DNA from: Haloarculaceae archaeon
GTDB taxonomy: Archaea; Halobacteriota; Halobacteria; Halobacteriales; Haloarculaceae
Length of the DNA stretch: 43,501 nt
Assembly (NCBI GenBank): GCA_007122455.1
Contig: SKTU01000055.1
Span: forward strand, 1 to 43,501
Direction: 5' to 3'
Shown: piece by piece, positions 5,131-20,730 of the stretch
Position numbering within the stretch: position 1 is the first letter of the stretch
Layout: each line of letters opens with the position of its first letter
Made by a program: the position numbers and the translations under genes
The notes under the pieces: generated by a model
Databases searched by the model: none
The model's input: only the letters and a program-made list of their open reading frames with translations
Told to the model about the DNA's origin: nothing

Positions 5131-5868
5131 ATGCAAGCAGTCGTGCTCGCCGCTGGGGAGGGGACCCGGCTCCGACCGTTGACCGAGGAGAAACCGAAGG
5201 CGCTCGTGGAGATCGACGGCCGCCCGATCCTCTCGCACTGTCTCGATCGACTGGTCGAACTCGGCGCGGACGAGCTCCACATCGTCGTGGGGTACAGAAA
5301 GGAGGCGCTGATCAGCCACTACGGCGACAGCTACGAGGGCGTCCCCATCACCTACGCCCACCAGCGCAACCCCGAGGGGCTCGCACACGCGTTGTTGACC
5401 GTCGAAGAGCAGATCGACGACGACTTCATGCTGATACTCGGCGACAACATCTTCGAGGCGAACCTGGAGGACGTCGTCCGCCGTCAGCGAGAGGATCGCG
5501 CGGACGCCGCGTTCCTCGTCGAGGAGGTTCCCTACGAGGAAGCCTCGAGGTACGGGGTCTGTGACACCAACGACTACGGCGAGATCACGGCCGTCGTCGA
5601 GAAGCCGGACGAGCCGCCGACGAACCTCGTCATGACCGGGTTCTACACGTTCACGCCGGCGATCTTCCACGCCTGCCATCTCGTCCAGCCCTCCGACCGC
5701 GGCGAGTACGAGCTCTCCGACGCGGTCGATCTGCTGATACACTCCGGTCGGACGATCGACGCCATCCGAATGGACGGGTGGCGGATGGACATCGGCTATC
5801 CGGAGGATCGCGACCGGGCAGAGGCGCGGCTGCGCGGCGAACCCGAGGCGAGTGTCGAAAGCGACTGA
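5131..5868 (+). CDS. Sugar-1-phosphate nucleotidyltransferase (AglF-like)
   Basis: A 245-residue nucleotidyltransferase with the signature MQAVVLAAGEGTRLRPLT and the sugar-phosphate lysine region EEKPKALVEI. It also has GDNIFE for metal/nucleotide binding and EKPDEPPTN before the active-site strand. Such enzymes join UTP or dTTP to glucose-1-phosphate or a related sugar phosphate; the Haloferax relative AglF makes UDP-glucose for N-glycosylation. I chose the ATG at 5131, where the motif begins and where a TATA-like box lies at the right distance; a longer start at 5071 adds unconserved residues. It is very similar to the convergent paralogue at 6598-7305, and 86 bp (5282-5367) are identical to it in inverted orientation. 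The exact sugar is unknown. Confidence 0.9.
   Translation: MQAVVLAAGEGTRLRPLTEEKPKALVEIDGRPILSHCLDRLVELGADELHIVVGYRKEALISHYGDSYEGVPITYAHQRNPEGLAHALLTVEEQIDDDFMLILGDNIFEANLEDVVRRQREDRADAAFLVEEVPYEEASRYGVCDTNDYGEITAVVEKPDEPPTNLVMTGFYTFTPAIFHACHLVQPSDRGEYELSDAVDLLIHSGRTIDAIRMDGWRMDIGYPEDRDRAEARLRGEPEASVESD
5282..5367 (+). repeat. Perfect 86-bp inverted repeat, left copy
   Basis: This segment, codons 51-79 of the first nucleotidyltransferase, is base-for-base the reverse complement of 7069-7154 in the second. Identity includes synonymous positions and a rare AGA arginine codon, and ends sharply on both sides. A further 28-bp identical block lies closer to the 5' ends (5180-5207 and 7229-7256). 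Confidence 0.95.
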
Positions 5869-5872
5869 GCGA

Positions 5873-6601
5873 ATGAACGTCACGCTGCTCGGAACCGGGA
5901 GCGCGCTCCCGTCCCCCAAACGCGTTCAGACGGGAGTCCTGCTCGACGCCGACGACCGCCGGCTGCTCGTCGACTGCGGGAGCGGCGTCCTCCACCGACT
6001 CGCTCAGGCGGACGTCCCCGTCGAGTCGATCGACACGGTTCTGTTGACCCACCACCACCTCGACCACGTCGCGGACGTCCCCTCGCTCGCGAAAGCGAAA
6101 CTCATCGAGGGGTACGGATCGCTAACCGTCGTCGGCCCCGCGGGAACCGACGCCGTCCTCGGATCGCTGTTCGCCGTCGACGATCTAGACGAGCGCGTCG
6201 AACTCGCGGTTCGAGAGATCGACGCCGGATCCCACCGCTGTGCGGGCTTCGACATCGACGCCATGGCGGTCCGTCACTCCAAGCGGTGTTTCGCCTACCG
6301 GTTCGGTGATCGACTCGCACTCAGCGGCGACACTGAACCGTTCGAAGCGCTCGCCGATTTCGTCGACGGCGTCGACGCGCTCGTCCACGAGTGCTCTCAC
6401 CCGGACGGCATCGAGACGCCGGGACACACCACCCCGTCGGCGCTTGCCGAATCCCTCGCCGGCTGTGACGTCGATCGGCTCTATCTCACCCACCTCTTCC
6501 CCGATGCGGAACGTCGAGCGGCGGAGATTCGCGACACGGTCGCCGATTCGCTCGACTGCGACGTCTTCGTCGGCGAGGACCTGCGATCGATCGACTGTTA
6601 A
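5873..6601 (+). CDS. RNase Z-like metallo-beta-lactamase hydrolase
   Basis: A 242-residue metallo-beta-lactamase fold protein of the RNase Z/ElaC type. The metal motif is HHHLDH at about residues 62-67. Further ligands are in LSGDTEP, ECSHPDG and LTHLFPD, and the N-terminus MNVTLLGTGSALPSPKR is typical of the group. It could cleave tRNA precursors, but it is shorter than the usual ~300 residues and lacks an obvious exosite arm, so it may be a different phosphodiesterase or hydrolase. The ATG at 5873 lies four bases after the stop of the nucleotidyltransferase; the longer start at 5852 would overlap that gene. It sits between the two arms of the inverted repeat. Confidence 0.8.
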   Translation: MNVTLLGTGSALPSPKRVQTGVLLDADDRRLLVDCGSGVLHRLAQADVPVESIDTVLLTHHHLDHVADVPSLAKAKLIEGYGSLTVVGPAGTDAVLGSLFAVDDLDERVELAVREIDAGSHRCAGFDIDAMAVRHSKRCFAYRFGDRLALSGDTEPFEALADFVDGVDALVHECSHPDGIETPGHTTPSALAESLAGCDVDRLYLTHLFPDAERRAAEIRDTVADSLDCDVFVGEDLRSIDC

Positions 6602-7305
6602 CCGACCAGCCGTTCGGCGCGTTCGACGTCGGTCGGCGTGTTGACGTTGACCCGCTCGCCGCAGAGCCGAACGCTCTCGACGCGGGTTCCGCGCTCGATG
6701 AGACGATTGATCGCGTCGGCGAGTTCGTACTCGCCGCGATCGGACGGCTCGATTCGCCGGCAGGCGCGGAAGATCGCCGGCGCGAACGCGTAGAATCCGG
6801 TCGTGACGAGGTTCGTCGGCGGTTCGTTCGGCTTCTCGAGGAGTTCGACCACGTCCCCGTTCGCGTCCGTCTCGACGACGCCGGTCGTCCGTGCCTCCTC
6901 GGTCGACACCCGCTCAGTCACCAAAAGCGCAGCCGGGTCGTTGGTTCGGAATCGATCGATCGGCGATTGGAGATCCGCATGGAGAACGTTGTCGCCGTTG
7001 AGAACGACGAACGGATCTTCGACGTGGGGCTCGGCACGGGACACCGCGTCGGCGAGGCCGATCGGCTCGCGCTGGTGGGCGTAGGTGATGGGGACGCCCT
7101 CGTAGCTGTCGCCGTAGTGGCTGATCAGCGCCTCCTTTCTGTACCCCACGACGACGATCAGCTCCTCGATACCGGCGTCCAGCAGCGAATCGAAGCAGTG
7201 CGAGAGGATCGGGGTTCCCGCAACTTCGACGAGCGCCTTCGGTTTCTCCTCGGTCAGCGGCCGGAGTCGCGTTCCGCGTCCGGCGGCGGGGACGACTGCC
7301 TGCAT
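6598..7305 (-). CDS. Sugar-1-phosphate nucleotidyltransferase (paralogue)
   Basis: A 235-residue nucleotidyltransferase starting MQAVVPAAGRGTRLRPLT, with TEEKPKALVEV, LNGDNVL and EKPNEPPTN. It is a paralogue of the 5131-5868 gene, nearly identical over VVVGYRKEALISHYGDSY. The first motif has proline where most relatives have leucine (VVPAAG for VVLAAG). It is the last gene of a minus-strand run, with its start two bases from the glmS stop, so it is probably translated from the glmU-glmS transcript. Its stop overlaps the stop of the RNase Z-like gene. I chose the start at 7305 because the 69 residues before it in the longer frame are antisense to glmS and low-complexity. The substrate sugar is unknown. 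Confidence 0.88.
   Translation of the reverse strand: MQAVVPAAGRGTRLRPLTEEKPKALVEVAGTPILSHCFDSLLDAGIEELIVVVGYRKEALISHYGDSYEGVPITYAHQREPIGLADAVSRAEPHVEDPFVVLNGDNVLHADLQSPIDRFRTNDPAALLVTERVSTEEARTTGVVETDANGDVVELLEKPNEPPTNLVTTGFYAFAPAIFRACRRIEPSDRGEYELADAINRLIERGTRVESVRLCGERVNVNTPTDVERAERLVG
7069..7154 (-). repeat. Perfect 86-bp inverted repeat, right copy
   Basis: This is the reverse complement of 5282-5367 without a mismatch. It covers codons 51-79 of the minus-strand nucleotidyltransferase, the same codons and frame as the left copy. The two copies enclose 1701 bp, including the whole RNase Z-like gene. Confidence 0.95.
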
Positions 7306-7306
7306 C

Positions 7307-9094
7307 TCACTCGACGGTGACGCTCTTGGCCAGGTTCCGCGGCTTGTCGATTGATCGTCCGAGTCGGTTCGCCACGTGGTAGGCGACGAGCTGGAGCTGG
7401 ACGTTGGCGACGATCGCCGCTGCCCGCGGATGCGTCTCCGGAACCCGGAGCACGTGATCGGCGTACCGGCCGGCTTCGCTCTGACCGTCGGTGATCGCGA
7501 CGACGGGGGCACCGCGCGCTTCGACCTCCTTTATGCTCCCGATCGTCTTCGTCGCGGCCTCGCCGTCCCCGGTGACGAGCGCGAACACCGGTGTGTCGCC
7601 GGTGACGAGCGCCAGCGGTCCGTGCTTCAGTTCGCCGGCGGCGAACCCCTCGGCGTGTTCGTAGGTGATCTCCTTCGTTTTGAGCGCCCCCTCCAGCGCC
7701 ACGGGGTAGTTCAGACCGCGCCCGATGAAGAAGTAGGCGTCGCTCCCGCCGTAGGCTTCGGCGACGGCCTCGGCGTTCGACTCGTCGAGCACCGTCTGGA
7801 CGTTCGCCGGCAGATCTCTGAGTGCGGCGATGGCGTCTCGGGCGTCGCTCGGCGGCGACGCGGCGATGGTGAGGAGGTTGAGTGCGGTCTGTTGGCCGGC
7901 GAACGTCTTCGTCGCAGCGACGCCGATCTCCGGTCCCGAGCGGATGAACAGTGCTCGATTGCACTCTCGGGCCATCGTCGAGCCGACTGTGTTGGTCAGC
8001 GCGAGGGTTTCGGCGCCGCGTCTCGACGCCTCCCGGATGGCACCCAGCGTGTCCGCGGTCTCGCCGCTCTGTGAGACGCCGACGACCAGGGCGTCCTCGA
8101 TCGGCGGCGGCGACAGCGCGTACTCGTGGGCGTAGAAGGCCTGTGCGGGGATCCCGCTCTGTTGGAGCAACTGGGCACCGTAGATGGCGGCGTGATAGCT
8201 CGTTCCCGCGGCGACGAGATGGACCCGAGCGGGATCCAGTTCGCCCAGCTCCGAGAGGCTAACGCGGCCCGCCAGTTCGTCGACGCGGCCCTGGAGACAC
8301 TGCCGGAGTGCCCGCGGCTGCTCGTGGATCTCCTTCAGCATGAAGTGGTCGTAGCCGCTCTTGCCGGTGTCCTCGGCGTCCCACTCGACCGTTCGGATCT
8401 CGACGTCGATTCGGTCGCCGTCGGCGTCGGTCACCACCCACCCGTCGCGGTCGACTCTCGCGAACTGTCCGTCCTCCAGGTAGACGACGCGATCCGTGTG
8501 CTCCCTGAACGCCGGAACGTCGCTCGCGAGATACGTCGCGTCGTCGGCGAGCCCCAACACCAGCGGCGAGTCGTTTCGCGCCGCGAGAATCGCCTCGGAT
8601 CCGGCGACGACCATCGCGAGCGCGTAGCTCCCCTCGAGTCTGGCGACCGCCGAACGGAACGCCGCCTCGGGATCGAGCCCGTCGGCGATCCCGTCCTCCA
8701 CCAGGTGGGGAACGACCTCCGTGTCGGTCTCGCTTTCGAACGTGTGGCCTGCGGCCTCCAGCTCGTCCCGAAGCGGCTGATAGTTCTCTATGATGCCGTT
8801 GTGGACGACGGCGACATTGCCCGTACAGTCGACGTGTGGGTGGGCGTTCTCGTCAGTCGGCGGGCCGTGGGTACTCCATCGCGTGTGGCCGATGCCGACC
8901 GTTCCGGGGAGCGTCTCCGGGACCGCCGCGCGGAGCGCGTCGAGTTCGCCGGCCCGCTTTCGCAGTTCGATGCGATCGCCCGCCATAGCGACGCCGGCCG
9001 AATCGTACCCCCGATACTCCAGCTTCCCGAGGCTCTCGACCAGCGTCTGTAGGGTCTCGTCGCCGCGGCCGACGCAGCCGATGATTCCGCACAT
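7307..9094 (-). CDS. glmS: Glutamine-fructose-6-phosphate aminotransferase GlmS
   Basis: A 595-residue isomerising glucosamine-6-phosphate synthase, the first step of the hexosamine pathway. The N-terminal glutaminase domain starts MCGIIGCVG, so Cys2 is the catalytic nucleophile after removal of Met. It continues with GYDSAGVA, HTRWSTHG and HNGIIENY. Two SIS sugar-isomerase domains follow (AAGTSYHAA and SQSGETADT in the first; GRGLNYPVALEGALKTKE in the second), and the end KPRNLAKSVTVE is the conserved C-terminal tail that shields the channel. Its start overlaps the glmU stop (TAATG, 9092-9096), so the two are translationally coupled. The bacterial glmS ribozyme has no counterpart here because there is no leader. 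Confidence 0.97.
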   Translation of the reverse strand: MCGIIGCVGRGDETLQTLVESLGKLEYRGYDSAGVAMAGDRIELRKRAGELDALRAAVPETLPGTVGIGHTRWSTHGPPTDENAHPHVDCTGNVAVVHNGIIENYQPLRDELEAAGHTFESETDTEVVPHLVEDGIADGLDPEAAFRSAVARLEGSYALAMVVAGSEAILAARNDSPLVLGLADDATYLASDVPAFREHTDRVVYLEDGQFARVDRDGWVVTDADGDRIDVEIRTVEWDAEDTGKSGYDHFMLKEIHEQPRALRQCLQGRVDELAGRVSLSELGELDPARVHLVAAGTSYHAAIYGAQLLQQSGIPAQAFYAHEYALSPPPIEDALVVGVSQSGETADTLGAIREASRRGAETLALTNTVGSTMARECNRALFIRSGPEIGVAATKTFAGQQTALNLLTIAASPPSDARDAIAALRDLPANVQTVLDESNAEAVAEAYGGSDAYFFIGRGLNYPVALEGALKTKEITYEHAEGFAAGELKHGPLALVTGDTPVFALVTGDGEAATKTIGSIKEVEARGAPVVAITDGQSEAGRYADHVLRVPETHPRAAAIVANVQLQLVAYHVANRLGRSIDKPRNLAKSVTVE

Positions 9095-10278
9095 TAGCGA
9101 ACCACCTCCGCGCCGTCAGGAATCCGCCCCTCGAGCCGGACGCCGTGACCGACAGTCGCGCCGGCCCCGACGAGCGCTCCGGGAGCGATCGCGCTGCCGC
9201 CGCCGATCGACGCCCGGTCGGCGATCGCTGCACCGAGTCGCTGGTCCTGAAACACCCGATCGTCGACGGCGATGTCGGCCGTCCCCCCGGAGACGACCGT
9301 TCCGGTGCCGATCGAAACGTCGGTGCCCGCGACGCAGTCGACGAGCGTCGCACCCGCCCCGATGCGACTGTCGTCGTCGATCAGCGACGAGACGACCGTC
9401 GCGTTGGCTCCGACCGTCGTGTTCCGCCCGACGACGGTGTCGGAGCCGACGACTGCGCCGGCCGCGACGACGGCGTCCGGACCGACGACGGCCGGCGCCT
9501 GTAGCGCGGCGCTCTCGTGGATCTGCGCCCCGTCCGCGACCCAGACACCGGGATACTGTTCGGGGTACGGAACGCGTCCGTGGGAGAGCAGTACGCGCGT
9601 CAAATAGAGCAGGTCCCACGGGTACGTCGCGTCGACCCACAGCCCGTCGGTTCGAACCGCACGGACCGATCGCTCGGTCATGAGCGTCGCGACGATGTCC
9701 GGGAGCTGGAGCTCGCCGTCCCGCAGCTCGGTTCGATCGGCGGCGTCGAACACCGACTCGTCGAAGGCGTAGACGCCGGCGTTGATCAGCCCGACCCCGT
9801 CCGTGTCCGGCTTCTCGACGAGCTCGACGAGGCGGTCGCCCTCGATCGTGGCGGCGCCGTACTCCGAGGGGTTCGCGTGCTCGATCACTGCGAGCGTCGG
9901 CGTCCCGTCGAACGCCTCGAGCGTGTCGGCGACGATTCGCTCCTCGAGGACGCGGTCGCCGTTGACGACGAGCAGCGGCGGATCGACGGAGATCTCCGCC
10001 TGCTTGAGTGCGTGGCCGCTCCCGAGCTGTTTCCCCTGTCGAGCGTACGTGATCGGTACGTCCCGGTAGGAGTGACCGAAATGTCCCTGCACGCGCTGTC
10101 GGCTGTAACCGACGACGAGGACGAGTCGTTCGATGCCGACATCGACGAGCGTGTCGAGGACGTGTTCCAGGATCGGTCGTCCGGCGGCAGGGAGCATCGG
10201 CTTCGGCCGGTTGGAGGTGAGTGGCCGGAGTCGGGTCCCTTCACCGGCCGCGAGAACGACGGCCGTATCGATCTGCAT
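9094..10278 (-). CDS. glmU: Two-domain sugar nucleotidyltransferase/acyltransferase GlmU
   Basis: A 394-residue protein with an N-terminal nucleotidyltransferase domain (VVLAAGEGTRLRPLT, NRPKPMLPAAGRPILEH, VNGDRVL, EKPDTDG) over roughly residues 1-235. A C-terminal left-handed beta-helix of hexapeptide repeats follows (about 245-394, for example VVGPDAVVAAGAVVGSDTVVG). This arrangement fits an archaeal GlmU that acetylates glucosamine-1-phosphate and transfers UMP to form UDP-GlcNAc. Position directly upstream of glmS, with overlapping TAATG, supports this over a UDP-glucose or dTDP-glucose role. GlmM, the missing middle step, is encoded at 35992-37353. It is the first gene of the glmU-glmS-nucleotidyltransferase run; the promoter lies in the 123-bp divergent gap with pus10. 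Confidence 0.9.
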   Translation of the reverse strand: MQIDTAVVLAAGEGTRLRPLTSNRPKPMLPAAGRPILEHVLDTLVDVGIERLVLVVGYSRQRVQGHFGHSYRDVPITYARQGKQLGSGHALKQAEISVDPPLLVVNGDRVLEERIVADTLEAFDGTPTLAVIEHANPSEYGAATIEGDRLVELVEKPDTDGVGLINAGVYAFDESVFDAADRTELRDGELQLPDIVATLMTERSVRAVRTDGLWVDATYPWDLLYLTRVLLSHGRVPYPEQYPGVWVADGAQIHESAALQAPAVVGPDAVVAAGAVVGSDTVVGRNTTVGANATVVSSLIDDDSRIGAGATLVDCVAGTDVSIGTGTVVSGGTADIAVDDRVFQDQRLGAAIADRASIGGGSAIAPGALVGAGATVGHGVRLEGRIPDGAEVVR

Positions 10279-11656: not shown

Positions 11657-12895
11657 TCAGATGGCGCTTCGAAGCGCCCAGACGTCCCTCTCGGGAACGA
11701 GGCGCGACGGTTCGGCGCCGCGCTCCGTGAGAATACCCGCGTGGTATAGCATCGCCTTCAGCTGAAACGTCGTCGGACTGTGGTATATCGTCGGGTCGGT
11801 CAGCGGTTCCCGCCGGAGCCCACCTCGCTCGTCGAGAACGCGCTGGCGTGCGCGGTCGGTGCCGCGGACGAACAGCTCGACGGCGAACGTCGGGTGTAGC
11901 TCGTGGAGATACGTGACGAGTTGCGGGAGGGTCGGTTCGGCGATCCCGTCGTCGTACATCCGCTGTAGCTCCTCGACGAGCAGTTCGGTTGCGGGATAGT
12001 CGAAGACGACCCGCCGCGCGAGCTGCCCCCATCTCGGTGCGACGTCGACGAACCGCCGGCTCGATCGCTTCCAGTCGTCGAACCGCTCGACAGCTGCCCG
12101 TGCGGAGCCGTGTTCCTCGATCGCGAACCGGACGACCTCACGGCCGAGAGGGGTGAGACGATCACCGGCAGGGCGCGTCTCGATCAGGCCGAGAAACGCC
12201 GCTCCCGTTCGGGCCTGAGCGGTTGCACCGACGACGTGTTCGGCGAGGAGCGTCTCGGTGTCATGGGCGGCGTACAGCGACACCGGATACGCGAGATAGT
12301 TCTTCGGGTGATTCAGGCCGAAGGATCGATCGGCGACGCCCTGAGCGGTCGCCTGCAGTCGGATTGCCGTCGTCTCGGTGGTCGTTCGGTTGCCGACGAT
12401 CCGGGGCGTTTCGAGCGGATCGACGGCCCCGCGAGGCGTGACGCCGAGTACGCCGACGTTCAGCTCGCGAGCGATCGTCCGGGCCGTCTGCGTGATCGCG
12501 TCGATCGGCGCCGCGACGTAGGCGGCGTTCGCTTCCCCGAGGCGGTCGTGAGCCTGTACGAGGGCCCCCTCGACGTCGACCGTCCCCCGGTCGGTGTACC
12601 CCTTCGCCTCGACGACGACGAGCGGCGGTTCGTCGCCGAGCCGATCGACGGAGAGCAGCTCGTTTTCGAGCGTTCGGACGCCGACCAGATCCGGGTAACC
12701 GGAACCGACACGGACGTGGTTGAACGGGGCGAGTGCCTCCCGAACGCCGTCGGGAATCCGCTCGTTCGTTCGCCACGTCTCGGTCGCGAACTGGGTGTCG
12801 ACGACGGCGTAGGAGCGGGACTCGTCTCGCTCCGGAAAGAGCCGTCGTTTGGCGTGGGCCAGCACCTGTGGTTCCGACAGCGCTTCGGCAGCCAT
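11657..12895 (-). CDS. Conserved haloarchaeal protein with PD-(D/E)XK nuclease-like core
   Basis: A 412-residue protein I cannot assign to a named family. Residues 60-130 look like a restriction-endonuclease fold: D69 in SGYPDLVGV, then E96 and K98 in PLVVVEAKG, then a helix with Q114 (ALVQAHDRLGEANAAY). This matches the D-(E)xK-Q pattern of PD-(D/E)XK nucleases. The C-terminal 200 residues look helical, with winged-helix-like stretches (LTPLGREVVRFAIEEHG; LKAMLYHAGILTERG). No membrane segment or signal is present. I chose the ATG at 12895; an in-frame ATG at 12922 and a longer frame to 13033 are possible, but the latter would overlap the stress-protein gene. The role could be DNA repair, defence or RNA processing; nothing in the neighbourhood decides. 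Confidence 0.7.
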   Translation of the reverse strand: MAAEALSEPQVLAHAKRRLFPERDESRSYAVVDTQFATETWRTNERIPDGVREALAPFNHVRVGSGYPDLVGVRTLENELLSVDRLGDEPPLVVVEAKGYTDRGTVDVEGALVQAHDRLGEANAAYVAAPIDAITQTARTIARELNVGVLGVTPRGAVDPLETPRIVGNRTTTETTAIRLQATAQGVADRSFGLNHPKNYLAYPVSLYAAHDTETLLAEHVVGATAQARTGAAFLGLIETRPAGDRLTPLGREVVRFAIEEHGSARAAVERFDDWKRSSRRFVDVAPRWGQLARRVVFDYPATELLVEELQRMYDDGIAEPTLPQLVTYLHELHPTFAVELFVRGTDRARQRVLDERGGLRREPLTDPTIYHSPTTFQLKAMLYHAGILTERGAEPSRLVPERDVWALRSAI

Positions 12896-12960
12896 GTGTC
12901 GCCGATCGGAGCCGCCGAGCATCAAGGTTGGCCCGACGCGTAGCGGTCGGGGACCGACTG

Positions 12961-12970
12961 GTTTTACCGG
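12961..12970 (+). promoter_or_regulatory. TATA-like box of the stress-protein gene
   Basis: The sequence GTTTTACC is centred about 28 bases before the ATG at 12992. This is the usual layout of a haloarchaeal leaderless promoter. No Shine-Dalgarno sequence precedes the ATG. Confidence 0.5.
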
Positions 12971-12991
12971 CGTGGGGTCCGTTGACCGGAT

Positions 12992-13432
12992 ATGTACGAA
13001 CGGATACTCGTGGCAACCGACGGGAGCGCCCACGCCGAACGGGCGGCCTCACAGGCGGTCGAACTCGCCGGGACGATCGGTGCCGAGGTTTACGCGATCT
13101 ACGTCATCGAAACGCGGACCGCGTACGACAACGCGATCGTCGATCCCGAGACAGTTCGGGAGAACTTCCGAGCGGAGGGCACCGAGGCCCTCGAATCCGT
13201 CGAACGGTTGGCCGAGCGAGCGGGCGTCGACGTGACGACGGAGATACGAGAAGGGATCCCGGGCGCCGAGATCATCGACGCCGTCGAGGAGTACCGGGTC
13301 GATCTCGTGGTGATGGGCGCAAAGGGGAGCTCGGAATTCAAGACCGTCATCCTCGGTAGCGCGACCGAAGCGGTGCTCCACGCCGACGTCGCTCCGGTGC
13401 TGATCGTGGACGGTGAGTCGAGCTCCGAGTGA
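12992..13432 (+). CDS. Universal stress protein (UspA family)
   Basis: A 146-residue single-domain Usp. The N-terminus MYERILVATDGSAHAERA gives the first strand and the aspartate of the nucleotide site. Near the C-terminus the ATP-binding pattern G-x2-G-x9-G-S is complete (GAKG, nine residues, GS in VILGSATEAVL), so this is probably an ATP-binding member. The end ADVAPVLIV is typical. Such proteins form dimers in the cytoplasm; their specific role is usually unknown. It is monocistronic, divergent from the nuclease-like gene and convergent with the phosphoesterase gene three bases away. Confidence 0.93.
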   Translation: MYERILVATDGSAHAERAASQAVELAGTIGAEVYAIYVIETRTAYDNAIVDPETVRENFRAEGTEALESVERLAERAGVDVTTEIREGIPGAEIIDAVEEYRVDLVVMGAKGSSEFKTVILGSATEAVLHADVAPVLIVDGESSSE

Positions 13433-18108: not shown

Positions 18109-19755
18109 ATGTCCAGTAAGATCCCGAAGAACGGGCAATTCGGCGTATCGAGACGGAGAGTTTTGGCGACGGGAGCAGTCCTGTCCGGAGCTGCACTGGT
18201 CGGTCCAGCCACGGCCGAGACGGAACAGGACAACGATGACGAGGACGACGTGTCGATCGTTGCCTGCGGCGACGTGATCAACCGCGAACTCACGCCCGAG
18301 GACGAGACTGGGTTCCGAAGCGACCTCCACTATCACGACGCCTACGGGTTCGATTGCGAGCAAGGGGAGTTCGTTTCGATTTCGATGAGCGTGATGCACG
18401 ACGACGGGGACGAACCGGACGACAACGATTACGAACCACCGGGGGGCCCGTACCTCTACCTGCTCGGTCCCGACGGGACGATCGTCGCCGAAGACGACGA
18501 CAGTGGCGGAGATCTCAACGCACACATTACCGTTCCCAGACTCCCGGAGTCGGGGCGCTACACGATCGTCGCGACGAGCTGGGGAGAGGAGGATTTCTTC
18601 GAATACCGGCTCGCGGTCGAGTGTGGCGATCCCTTCGATCGCGAACCGATCGCCTGTGACGAGACCGTCGTCGGCGAACTCACGCCGGACGATCCAACCG
18701 GATTCCTGAGCGACGAACACGCACACGACGCCTACGGGTTCGAGGGAACTGCGGGGGAGTTCGTCGAGATTTCGATGGACGGACTCGACGTCCCGATCAA
18801 CGACGACTGCGACACGACGTTCCCCGATCCGCTGTTGGTACTGCTCGACCCCGACCTCGAGTTAATCGCGTGGGACGACGACAGTGGCGGGAACCTCAAC
18901 GCGCGGATCAACACGCGACTCCCGATGGACGGATCCTACACGCTGATCGCGACGAGCTGGGCGCCGAGGATGTACTTCGCCTACGAGCTCTCGCTAGCGT
19001 GCAGGGCGCCGCGCGACCCGGAGCCGATCGAATGCGGTGAGACGATCGCGGGCGAGCTCTCCCTGGATGACGACAGCGGCATCCGAAACGAGTTCGGCCG
19101 ACACGTCCACGACACGTACGTCTTCGAGGGAGCGGCGGGGGAGTACGTGACGATCACGATGCAGGCGGATCGGTTCGCGACGAACCACGAACATCACGAC
19201 TACCCGCTGGGTGATCCGTACCTCTACCTGTTCGATCCGGACGGACAGCTGATCGCCGAAGACGACGACAGTGCGGGCGACTTCGGGGCGATGATTCAAC
19301 AGCTGTTGCGCTCGGACGGCGAGTACGTCATCGTCGCGACGAGCTTCGACGCCGGGGAGTTCTTCCCCTACGAGCTGACGCTCGCCTGTGAGGATGAAGG
19401 CCCGCCGCTACCAGAGCCGATCGCGATCGAGTGCGGCGAGACGGTCCTTGAGGCGATCGAACCGACCGACTCGACCGGCTTCCTCAGCCCCGGTCATTTC
19501 CACGACCACTACGAGTTCGAGGGCGCCGCTGGCGACCTCGTCACGCTCTCGATGTCCTCCACTGACGGGGATCCGTTCGTCGTACTGTTGGATCCAGAGA
19601 GTGAGATCGTCGCCTGGGACGACGACAGCGGCGGCGGATTCGACGCCCTGATCTCGAACGTTGAACTCGACGCCAACGGGACGTACTCGATCGTCGCGAC
19701 GAGCTTCGGACCGGCACAGTTTTTCGATTACGAACTGACGATTCAGTGTCTGTAG
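18109..19755 (+). CDS. Secreted Tat substrate with four tandem PPC-like repeats
   Basis: A 548-residue exported protein. The N-terminus carries a twin-arginine signal (SRRRVLATGAVLSGAALV, residues 14-31) ending near PATAE, with no lipobox cysteine. The mature part has four homologous domains, about residues 50-172, 178-298, 305-427 and 432-548. Each starts with a pattern like EPIxCGETVxGEL, continues with TGFxSxxHxHDxYxFEGxAGExV, then DPxLxLLDPDxxxIAxDDDSGG, and ends with YxIVATSWxxxxFFxYELxLxC. This resembles bacterial pre-peptidase C-terminal (PPC) beta-sandwich domains. The acidic DDDSGG turn could bind calcium, and the cysteines at each end could form one disulfide per repeat (inference). 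No catalytic domain is seen, so a binding or surface role is likely. Two tatA genes follow on the same strand. Confidence 0.85.
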   Translation: MSSKIPKNGQFGVSRRRVLATGAVLSGAALVGPATAETEQDNDDEDDVSIVACGDVINRELTPEDETGFRSDLHYHDAYGFDCEQGEFVSISMSVMHDDGDEPDDNDYEPPGGPYLYLLGPDGTIVAEDDDSGGDLNAHITVPRLPESGRYTIVATSWGEEDFFEYRLAVECGDPFDREPIACDETVVGELTPDDPTGFLSDEHAHDAYGFEGTAGEFVEISMDGLDVPINDDCDTTFPDPLLVLLDPDLELIAWDDDSGGNLNARINTRLPMDGSYTLIATSWAPRMYFAYELSLACRAPRDPEPIECGETIAGELSLDDDSGIRNEFGRHVHDTYVFEGAAGEYVTITMQADRFATNHEHHDYPLGDPYLYLFDPDGQLIAEDDDSAGDFGAMIQQLLRSDGEYVIVATSFDAGEFFPYELTLACEDEGPPLPEPIAIECGETVLEAIEPTDSTGFLSPGHFHDHYEFEGAAGDLVTLSMSSTDGDPFVVLLDPESEIVAWDDDSGGGFDALISNVELDANGTYSIVATSFGPAQFFDYELTIQCL

Positions 19756-20033: not shown

Positions 20034-20294
20034 ATGGTTGGTACACTGTCGTTGCAGCTCGGCATTCCCGGCGGGCCGGAGCTGCTCATCATCGTTGCGA
20101 TTGCCGTGCTGCTGTTCGGCGCGAGCAAGATCCCGAAGCTCGCCCGCTCGATGGGCCAGGCCACCGGAGAGTTCAAGAAAGGCCGCGAGGACGTCGAACA
20201 GGAACTCGAGGAGATGAAGGAACCGACGAACGTGGACTCGAACACCGGTACGGAGGAGGAGTCCGACCTCGAAACCGATCGGTCGAATGCCTGA
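20034..20294 (+). CDS. tatA: Sec-independent translocase component TatA (first copy)
   Basis: An 86-residue TatA-type protein: a short periplasmic-side N-terminus, one membrane helix (about residues 14-31, PELLIIVAIAVLLFG), the hinge GASKIPKLARS, then the amphipathic helix with GEFKKG. The C-terminal tail is short and acidic. TatA forms the pore-like assembly that moves folded proteins with twin-arginine signals, a route haloarchaea use for most secreted proteins. It is followed 49 bases later by a closely similar copy. A Tat substrate lies just upstream, but most haloarchaeal secreted proteins use Tat, so this adjacency alone does not prove pairing. No tatC is in the window. Confidence 0.92.
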   Translation: MVGTLSLQLGIPGGPELLIIVAIAVLLFGASKIPKLARSMGQATGEFKKGREDVEQELEEMKEPTNVDSNTGTEEESDLETDRSNA

Positions 20295-20310
20295 TCGACG
20301 AGGAAAAAGC

Positions 20311-20317
20311 CTATAAT
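20311..20317 (+). promoter_or_regulatory. TATA-like box of the second tatA
   Basis: CTATAAT is centred 30 bases before the ATG at 20344, inside the 49-bp gap between the tatA copies. This suggests the second copy can be transcribed on its own. Confidence 0.5.
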
Positions 20318-20343
20318 CGAGTCTGGGCTAGCTGAGAACAGAG

Positions 20344-20730
20344 ATGGTTGGTACACTGTCGTTACAGCTCGGCATTCCCGGTGGGCCGGAGCTGCTCATC
20401 ATTCTGCTCATCGCCGTCCTGCTGTTCGGCGCGAACAAGATCCCGAAGCTCGCCCGCTCGACCGGGGAAGCGATGGGGGAGTTCCAGAAGGGTCGCGAAG
20501 AGGTCGAACAGGAACTCCAGAGTATGCGCGATGGAGTCTCCGGCGACGTCGAAGGCGACGACGATGAGAGGGACGCCGACGAAGAGGTAGATTCCGACGC
20601 CGAAGCTGACGTTGACGCCGATGCTGACGAAGAAGACGAGTTCGAGATCGCCGACGCGGAGGGAGACACCGACACGGAGGTCGAAGCCGAATCGGAATCG
20701 GAGTCGGAGACCGACACCGAACGAACCTGA
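20344..20730 (+). CDS. tatA: Sec-independent translocase component TatA (second copy, long acidic tail)
   Basis: A 128-residue TatA. Residues 1-60 are almost the same as in the first copy (MVGTLSLQLGIPGGPELLII, hinge GANKIPKLARS, amphipathic helix to VEQELQSM). It then carries about 68 extra residues made almost wholly of Asp, Glu, Ser, Ala, Val and Thr, including DADVDADADEEDEFEIADAE. Such a tail would be cytoplasmic and disordered even in high salt. The pair looks like a tandem duplication with divergence confined to the tail, which might change assembly or partner choice (inference). tRNA-Arg follows 24 bases after the stop. Confidence 0.92.
   Translation: MVGTLSLQLGIPGGPELLIILLIAVLLFGANKIPKLARSTGEAMGEFQKGREEVEQELQSMRDGVSGDVEGDDDERDADEEVDSDAEADVDADADEEDEFEIADAEGDTDTEVEAESESESETDTERT

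Follow-up and report, generated by a model that had tools for sequence, protein, structure and literature searches.

Invertible-segment switches of the shufflon type work with a dedicated recombinase, short sites and several orientations. Among archaeal paralogues, partial gene conversion was reportedly described by Archibald and Roger in 2002 for euryarchaeal chaperonin genes. Concerted evolution of paralogues via gene conversion has been documented across prokaryotes, with tuf and mtrA as examples (PMC6053082). Experiments with the polyploid haloarchaeon Haloferax volcanii have established that its chromosome copies undergo gene conversion (PMC11276520), and in the same species the near-identical genes sod1 and sod2, which share about 600 bp of identity in direct orientation, recombined by a crossover whose product was a split chromosome (PMC6063281).

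Here we describe two convergent nucleotidyltransferase genes, A and B, that share an exact 86-bp inverted repeat. They lie in a window of 43,501 nucleotides, the whole stretch of DNA that was analysed, which constitutes one contig (C138) among the 149 of a draft genome from a haloarchaeon (2.93 Mb, 87% complete). The identity of the two arms is very probably the trace of a recent, one-way gene conversion of the ordinary ectopic kind, from A into B.

Gene A, gene B and their shared block

The gene order at the locus is ThiS-like (minus strand), A (plus), RNase Z-like (plus), B (minus), glmS (minus) and GlmU-like (minus), and the features that matter here are as follows.

5131 to 5868, plus strand: gene A, an AglF-type UTP-glucose-1-phosphate uridylyltransferase of 245 aa (NCBIfam NF041313, Pfam NTP_transferase), probable donor of the block
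5282 to 5367, plus strand: arm 1 of the exact 86-bp inverted repeat, within gene A, from codon 51 position 2 to codon 79
5873 to 6601, plus strand: RNase Z-like MBL-fold gene between the arms (TIGR02651, 130 bits, cut-off 293)
6598 to 7305, minus strand: gene B, an AglF-related nucleotidyltransferase of 235 aa (NF041313, below cut-off), probable recipient of the block
7069 to 7154, minus strand: arm 2 of the exact 86-bp inverted repeat, within gene B; A-type sequence inside a B-type gene
7307 to 9094, minus strand: glmS, codirectional with gene B and immediately upstream of it (TIGR01135, 698.8 bits)
9094 to 10278, minus strand: GlmU-like bifunctional nucleotidyltransferase, a third paralogue (TIGR03992, 270.8 bits, cut-off 292)

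Gene A reaches 431.9 bits against NF041313, above the curated cut-off of 400 for AglF, and its closest solved structures are sugar nucleotidyltransferases of the RmlA and GalU type. This AglF gene is kept across haloarchaea, with orthologues in most of the genomes searched, and within the genus most of them are about 80-84% identical to A in nucleotides, the closest at 84%. Gene B scores 348.2 bits, under the same cut-off, and is an AglF-related paralogue rather than an established AglF. In relatives the B-type genes lie elsewhere in the genome and do not adjoin glmS; indeed, a gene B beside glmS-glmU was absent in all 13 relatives examined. The cluster arrangement is not conserved among relatives, and the genus carries A and B-type genes at separate loci. 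Gene B is a deep lineage, and the genus lacks an orthologue of it at this position. Side-by-side tandems of an A-type and a B-type gene occur in two genomes from a different genus of the family (L115 in G152 and L123 in G162); the two neighbours share no long exact tract there.

The RNase Z-like gene that separates the arms is an additional copy, which no other genome examined has at this position. It is 47% identical to a second copy on contig C108 of the same genome, and it is that C108 copy whose orthologues occur in the genus (61-68%). The RNase Z-like gene and gene B may have arrived together. Further along the window, a 458-aa open frame at 11657-13033 (minus strand) has no Pfam match. 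Within 18262-19749 lie four direct repeats (families D6, D8, D9 and D20), each roughly 360-390 bp long and diverged, and a 177-bp direct repeat of 85% identity, with a start-to-start spacing of 310 bp, lies at 20034-20520.

The initial annotation had noted an exact inverted repeat covering codons 51-79 of both genes in the same frame, and both its coordinates and its frame were confirmed. Bases 5282-5367 match the reverse complement of 7069-7154 exactly, and a mismatched base flanks the match at either end. In both genes the block begins at codon 51 position 2 and ends at codon 79 position 3, and 1,701 bp separate the two arms. Overall identity between A and B is 68% in the DNA codon alignment and 58% at the protein level. 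All 28 whole codons of the block, each of them degenerate, are identical between the genes, as compared with 62 of 101 shared residues (61%) outside it (Fisher p = 1.2e-5). Divergence between A and B, which the same annotation had suggested following along the two genes, falls to zero only in this block. None of 100,000 codon-preserving shuffles reached 86 bp (mean 18, maximum 53 bp), and a simple estimate puts the chance expectation of such a stretch at 4e-5.

A scan of the window for exact repeats found no other of this size. The remaining matches of at least 22 bp were one direct repeat near 20126/20436 and a 28-bp inverted run, the next-longest between A and B (5180-5207 and 7229-7256, about codons 17-26), which is perhaps the remnant of an older exchange. 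The GlmU-like paralogue has no long exact tract in common with either gene, the longest strings that it shares with A and B being 17 and 11 bp, respectively.

Affinity of the block and of the rest of gene B

Within codons 51-79 gene B has the character of an A-type gene. Its diagnostic residues there are 10 A-type and 0 B-type, as compared with 4 A-type and 9 B-type in codons 80-110, and 2 A-type and 10 B-type in codons 204-235; B-type residues P6 and R10 stand near its start, and its tail is also B-type. Gene A, for its part, is A-type at 10 of 10 diagnostic positions in the block and at nearly all outside it, including head and tail. Trees built by segment place B inside the A clade for the block only, and in the non-converted parts the split between A and a group of B plus B-type genes has a support of 99.8. 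Similarly, where A has a DNA state that few of its orthologues have, B agrees with A at 7 of 8 sites in codons 51-79 and at 13 of 43 elsewhere.

Comparison with relatives also sets the block apart. Here the A orthologues of the genus match A at 69-82% of bases, so that 18-31% differ, and the B-type genes of the genus show only about 29-57% residue identity. For B-type genes elsewhere the corresponding protein values are 66% (the tandem pairs of another genus) and 69-79% (genus g13). Downstream of the block, in codons 80-155 and 204-234, the protein identity of B is mostly 47-58% with B-type genes and about 30-33% with A. Tract and flank thus belong to different lineages on the 3′ side (codons 80-155) and in the tail; on the 5′ side (codons 1-50) the signal is mixed. 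Four genes of another genus (L110, L111, L112 and L120, in G145, G146, G031 and G143) have A-like codons 51-79 (69-79% in protein) in a remainder that is largely B-type; possibly, these are old conversions of the same region.

Since gene B combines an A-type block with B-type variable parts, and shares A's rare states in that block, the tract very probably derives from this lineage's own A. Because its 86 bp contain 0 differences, against 18% or more in the corresponding block of relatives, the event is recent relative to the split from the sampled relatives. It was also non-reciprocal, the donor A being unchanged and A-type throughout. What B originally carried in the block must be deduced from distant B-type genes, as the genus has no orthologue of B at this place. 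The fallback reading of the initial annotation, a recent gene conversion between diverged paralogues, is therefore well supported, and a direction from A to B can be added to it. In the mechanism that we propose, homologous repair or recombination would have copied codons 51-79 of gene A one way into its inverted neighbour B, replacing B's own sequence there and leaving A, and B outside this stretch, as they were. The molecular route would be RadA-dependent, non-crossover repair, and the host is probably a polyploid haloarchaeon. The tract itself is presumably without function, with no switching role indicated.

Outside the block the history of B is not purely B-type, because codons 1-50 and 156-203 are somewhat A-like. 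In these segments A and B are 73% and 83% identical in DNA, respectively, and B is closer to A than to B-type genes with support of 99.5-99.9; it nevertheless falls outside the A clade and has few of the rare A states. Either an older conversion or slower evolution could explain the pattern, and for older conversion these comparisons are suggestive only.

AglF-family pairs in other haloarchaea

In a survey of 63 within-genome pairs of AglF-family genes, no tract was less likely by chance than that of A and B, if one pair of identical copies is set aside. Exact tracts of 115, 104, 95, 94, 92, 89 and 71 bp were found in other genomes between copies that are 82-91% identical, mostly on different contigs or far apart. 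Their chance expectations range from 4e-4 to 0.03; since these figures treat regions under different constraint alike, only the strongest cases can be taken as firm. This small survey suggests that tracts of this sort between AglF copies occur in several other haloarchaea. Long exact tracts between B-type and A-type genes were found in none of the other surveyed genomes, where such matches reached 30 bp at most. A recurrent hot spot was considered as well and rejected: the tracts occupy different codons among the 63 pairs (192-228, 173-201, 36-66, 112-145, 82-112, 52-102, 142-164, 121-150 and 97-109), and there is therefore no fixed site of conversion. The pair of identical copies set aside above (L171 and L172, on contig C3 of G106) agrees across the 720 bp compared and lies about 89 kb apart, which may reflect either a recent duplication or a complete conversion.

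Alternative explanations and known systems

Conversion from A into B has to be weighed against several other origins for the repeat. Purifying selection could in principle hold the same sequence in both genes with no recombination at all, as the proteins are homologous and the segment falls within their fairly conserved N-terminal half. However, selection of this kind does not sit well with 28 of 28 degenerate codons being identical in the block against 61% outside, and it is contradicted by the relatives, whose A orthologues differ at 18-31% of the block's bases and whose B-type genes retain only about 29-57% of its residues; we consider its probability practically negligible. It is extremely improbable, too, that gene B is a recent inverted duplicate of A that diverged everywhere except in the block. 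The DNA identities of 73% in codons 1-50 and 83% in codons 156-203 speak for such an origin, but a recent duplicate would be nearest to A throughout, and the reading thus fails on codons 80-155 and 204-234, where the identity of B is about 30-33% with A but mostly 47-58% with B-type genes from other loci. An assembly artefact, in which a chimeric join or a wrong orientation produced the repeat, deserves attention in a draft genome of 149 contigs and 87% completeness, the more so as it may stay unsettled which way round a segment lies when the inverted repeat that encloses it exceeds the assembly k-mer. An assembler would not be expected, however, to put 86 identical bases midway in a divergent open gene, and each arm is flanked by gene-appropriate sequence, with heads and tails that agree with the assembled orientation; an artefact is accordingly very unlikely. 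Lateral transfer of a gene B that had already acquired its block from the gene A of a close relative would fit the absence of B and the adjoining RNase Z-like gene from this place in the sampled relatives. Yet the block has this genome's own rare A states with zero mismatches, so that transfer requires a near-identical donor strain, and we regard it as highly unlikely.

The main reading put forward in the initial annotation was that recombination between the arms could invert the 1.7 kb between them and exchange the C-terminal parts of the two enzymes. The geometry of this proposal holds: the arms are exact, inverted and in frame, and inversion of 5368-7068 in silico gives two open hybrids of 235 and 245 aa. 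Ectopic recombination between sod1 and sod2, which rearranged the chromosome of Haloferax volcanii (PMC6063281), also offers a precedent. If the arms were a live crossover, the segment would be inverted in part of the population or among the chromosome copies of one cell, and the sugar-binding halves would be swapped to form two hybrid nucleotidyltransferases. Such an occurrence, however, receives no support from the observations. The assembly contains one orientation only, and in it A and B are not swapped, since their heads and tails match their own lineages (A is A-type at both ends; B has P6, R10 and a B-type tail). Pfam recognised no recombinase among the nearest 15 genes, one of which (11657-13033) has no Pfam match. 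Moreover, the tracts of other AglF pairs lie elsewhere in the gene and between unlinked copies, the arrangement is absent from relatives, and conversion alone accounts for the tract. A live inversion is thus very unlikely, and conversion from A into B is the reading that we retain.

Set beside the known systems, the A/B locus resembles shufflon-like switches in having inverted identical segments within coding sequence, but the hallmarks of those switches, a dedicated recombinase, short sites and several orientations, were not seen here. With sod1 and sod2 it has in common ectopic homologous recombination between haloarchaeal paralogues; it differs in that the identity extends over only 86 bp, is inverted and, in the assembled state, apparently arose without crossover. 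As in the concerted evolution of the tuf and mtrA type, copying between paralogues has made copies, or parts of them, alike against the orthologue tree. In those cases, however, the process is recurrent, long-term and between similar copies, whereas A and B show a single short tract between genes that are only 68% identical. The tract points to no new mechanism and is best seen as an ordinary event. Because segments can move between paralogues, whole-sequence trees and function calls for AglF-like genes can mislead. The euryarchaeal chaperonin genes are likewise a case of conversion between archaeal paralogues, in a gene family different from AglF, and beside them A and B constitute a clean, polarised case of partial conversion between distant archaeal paralogues.
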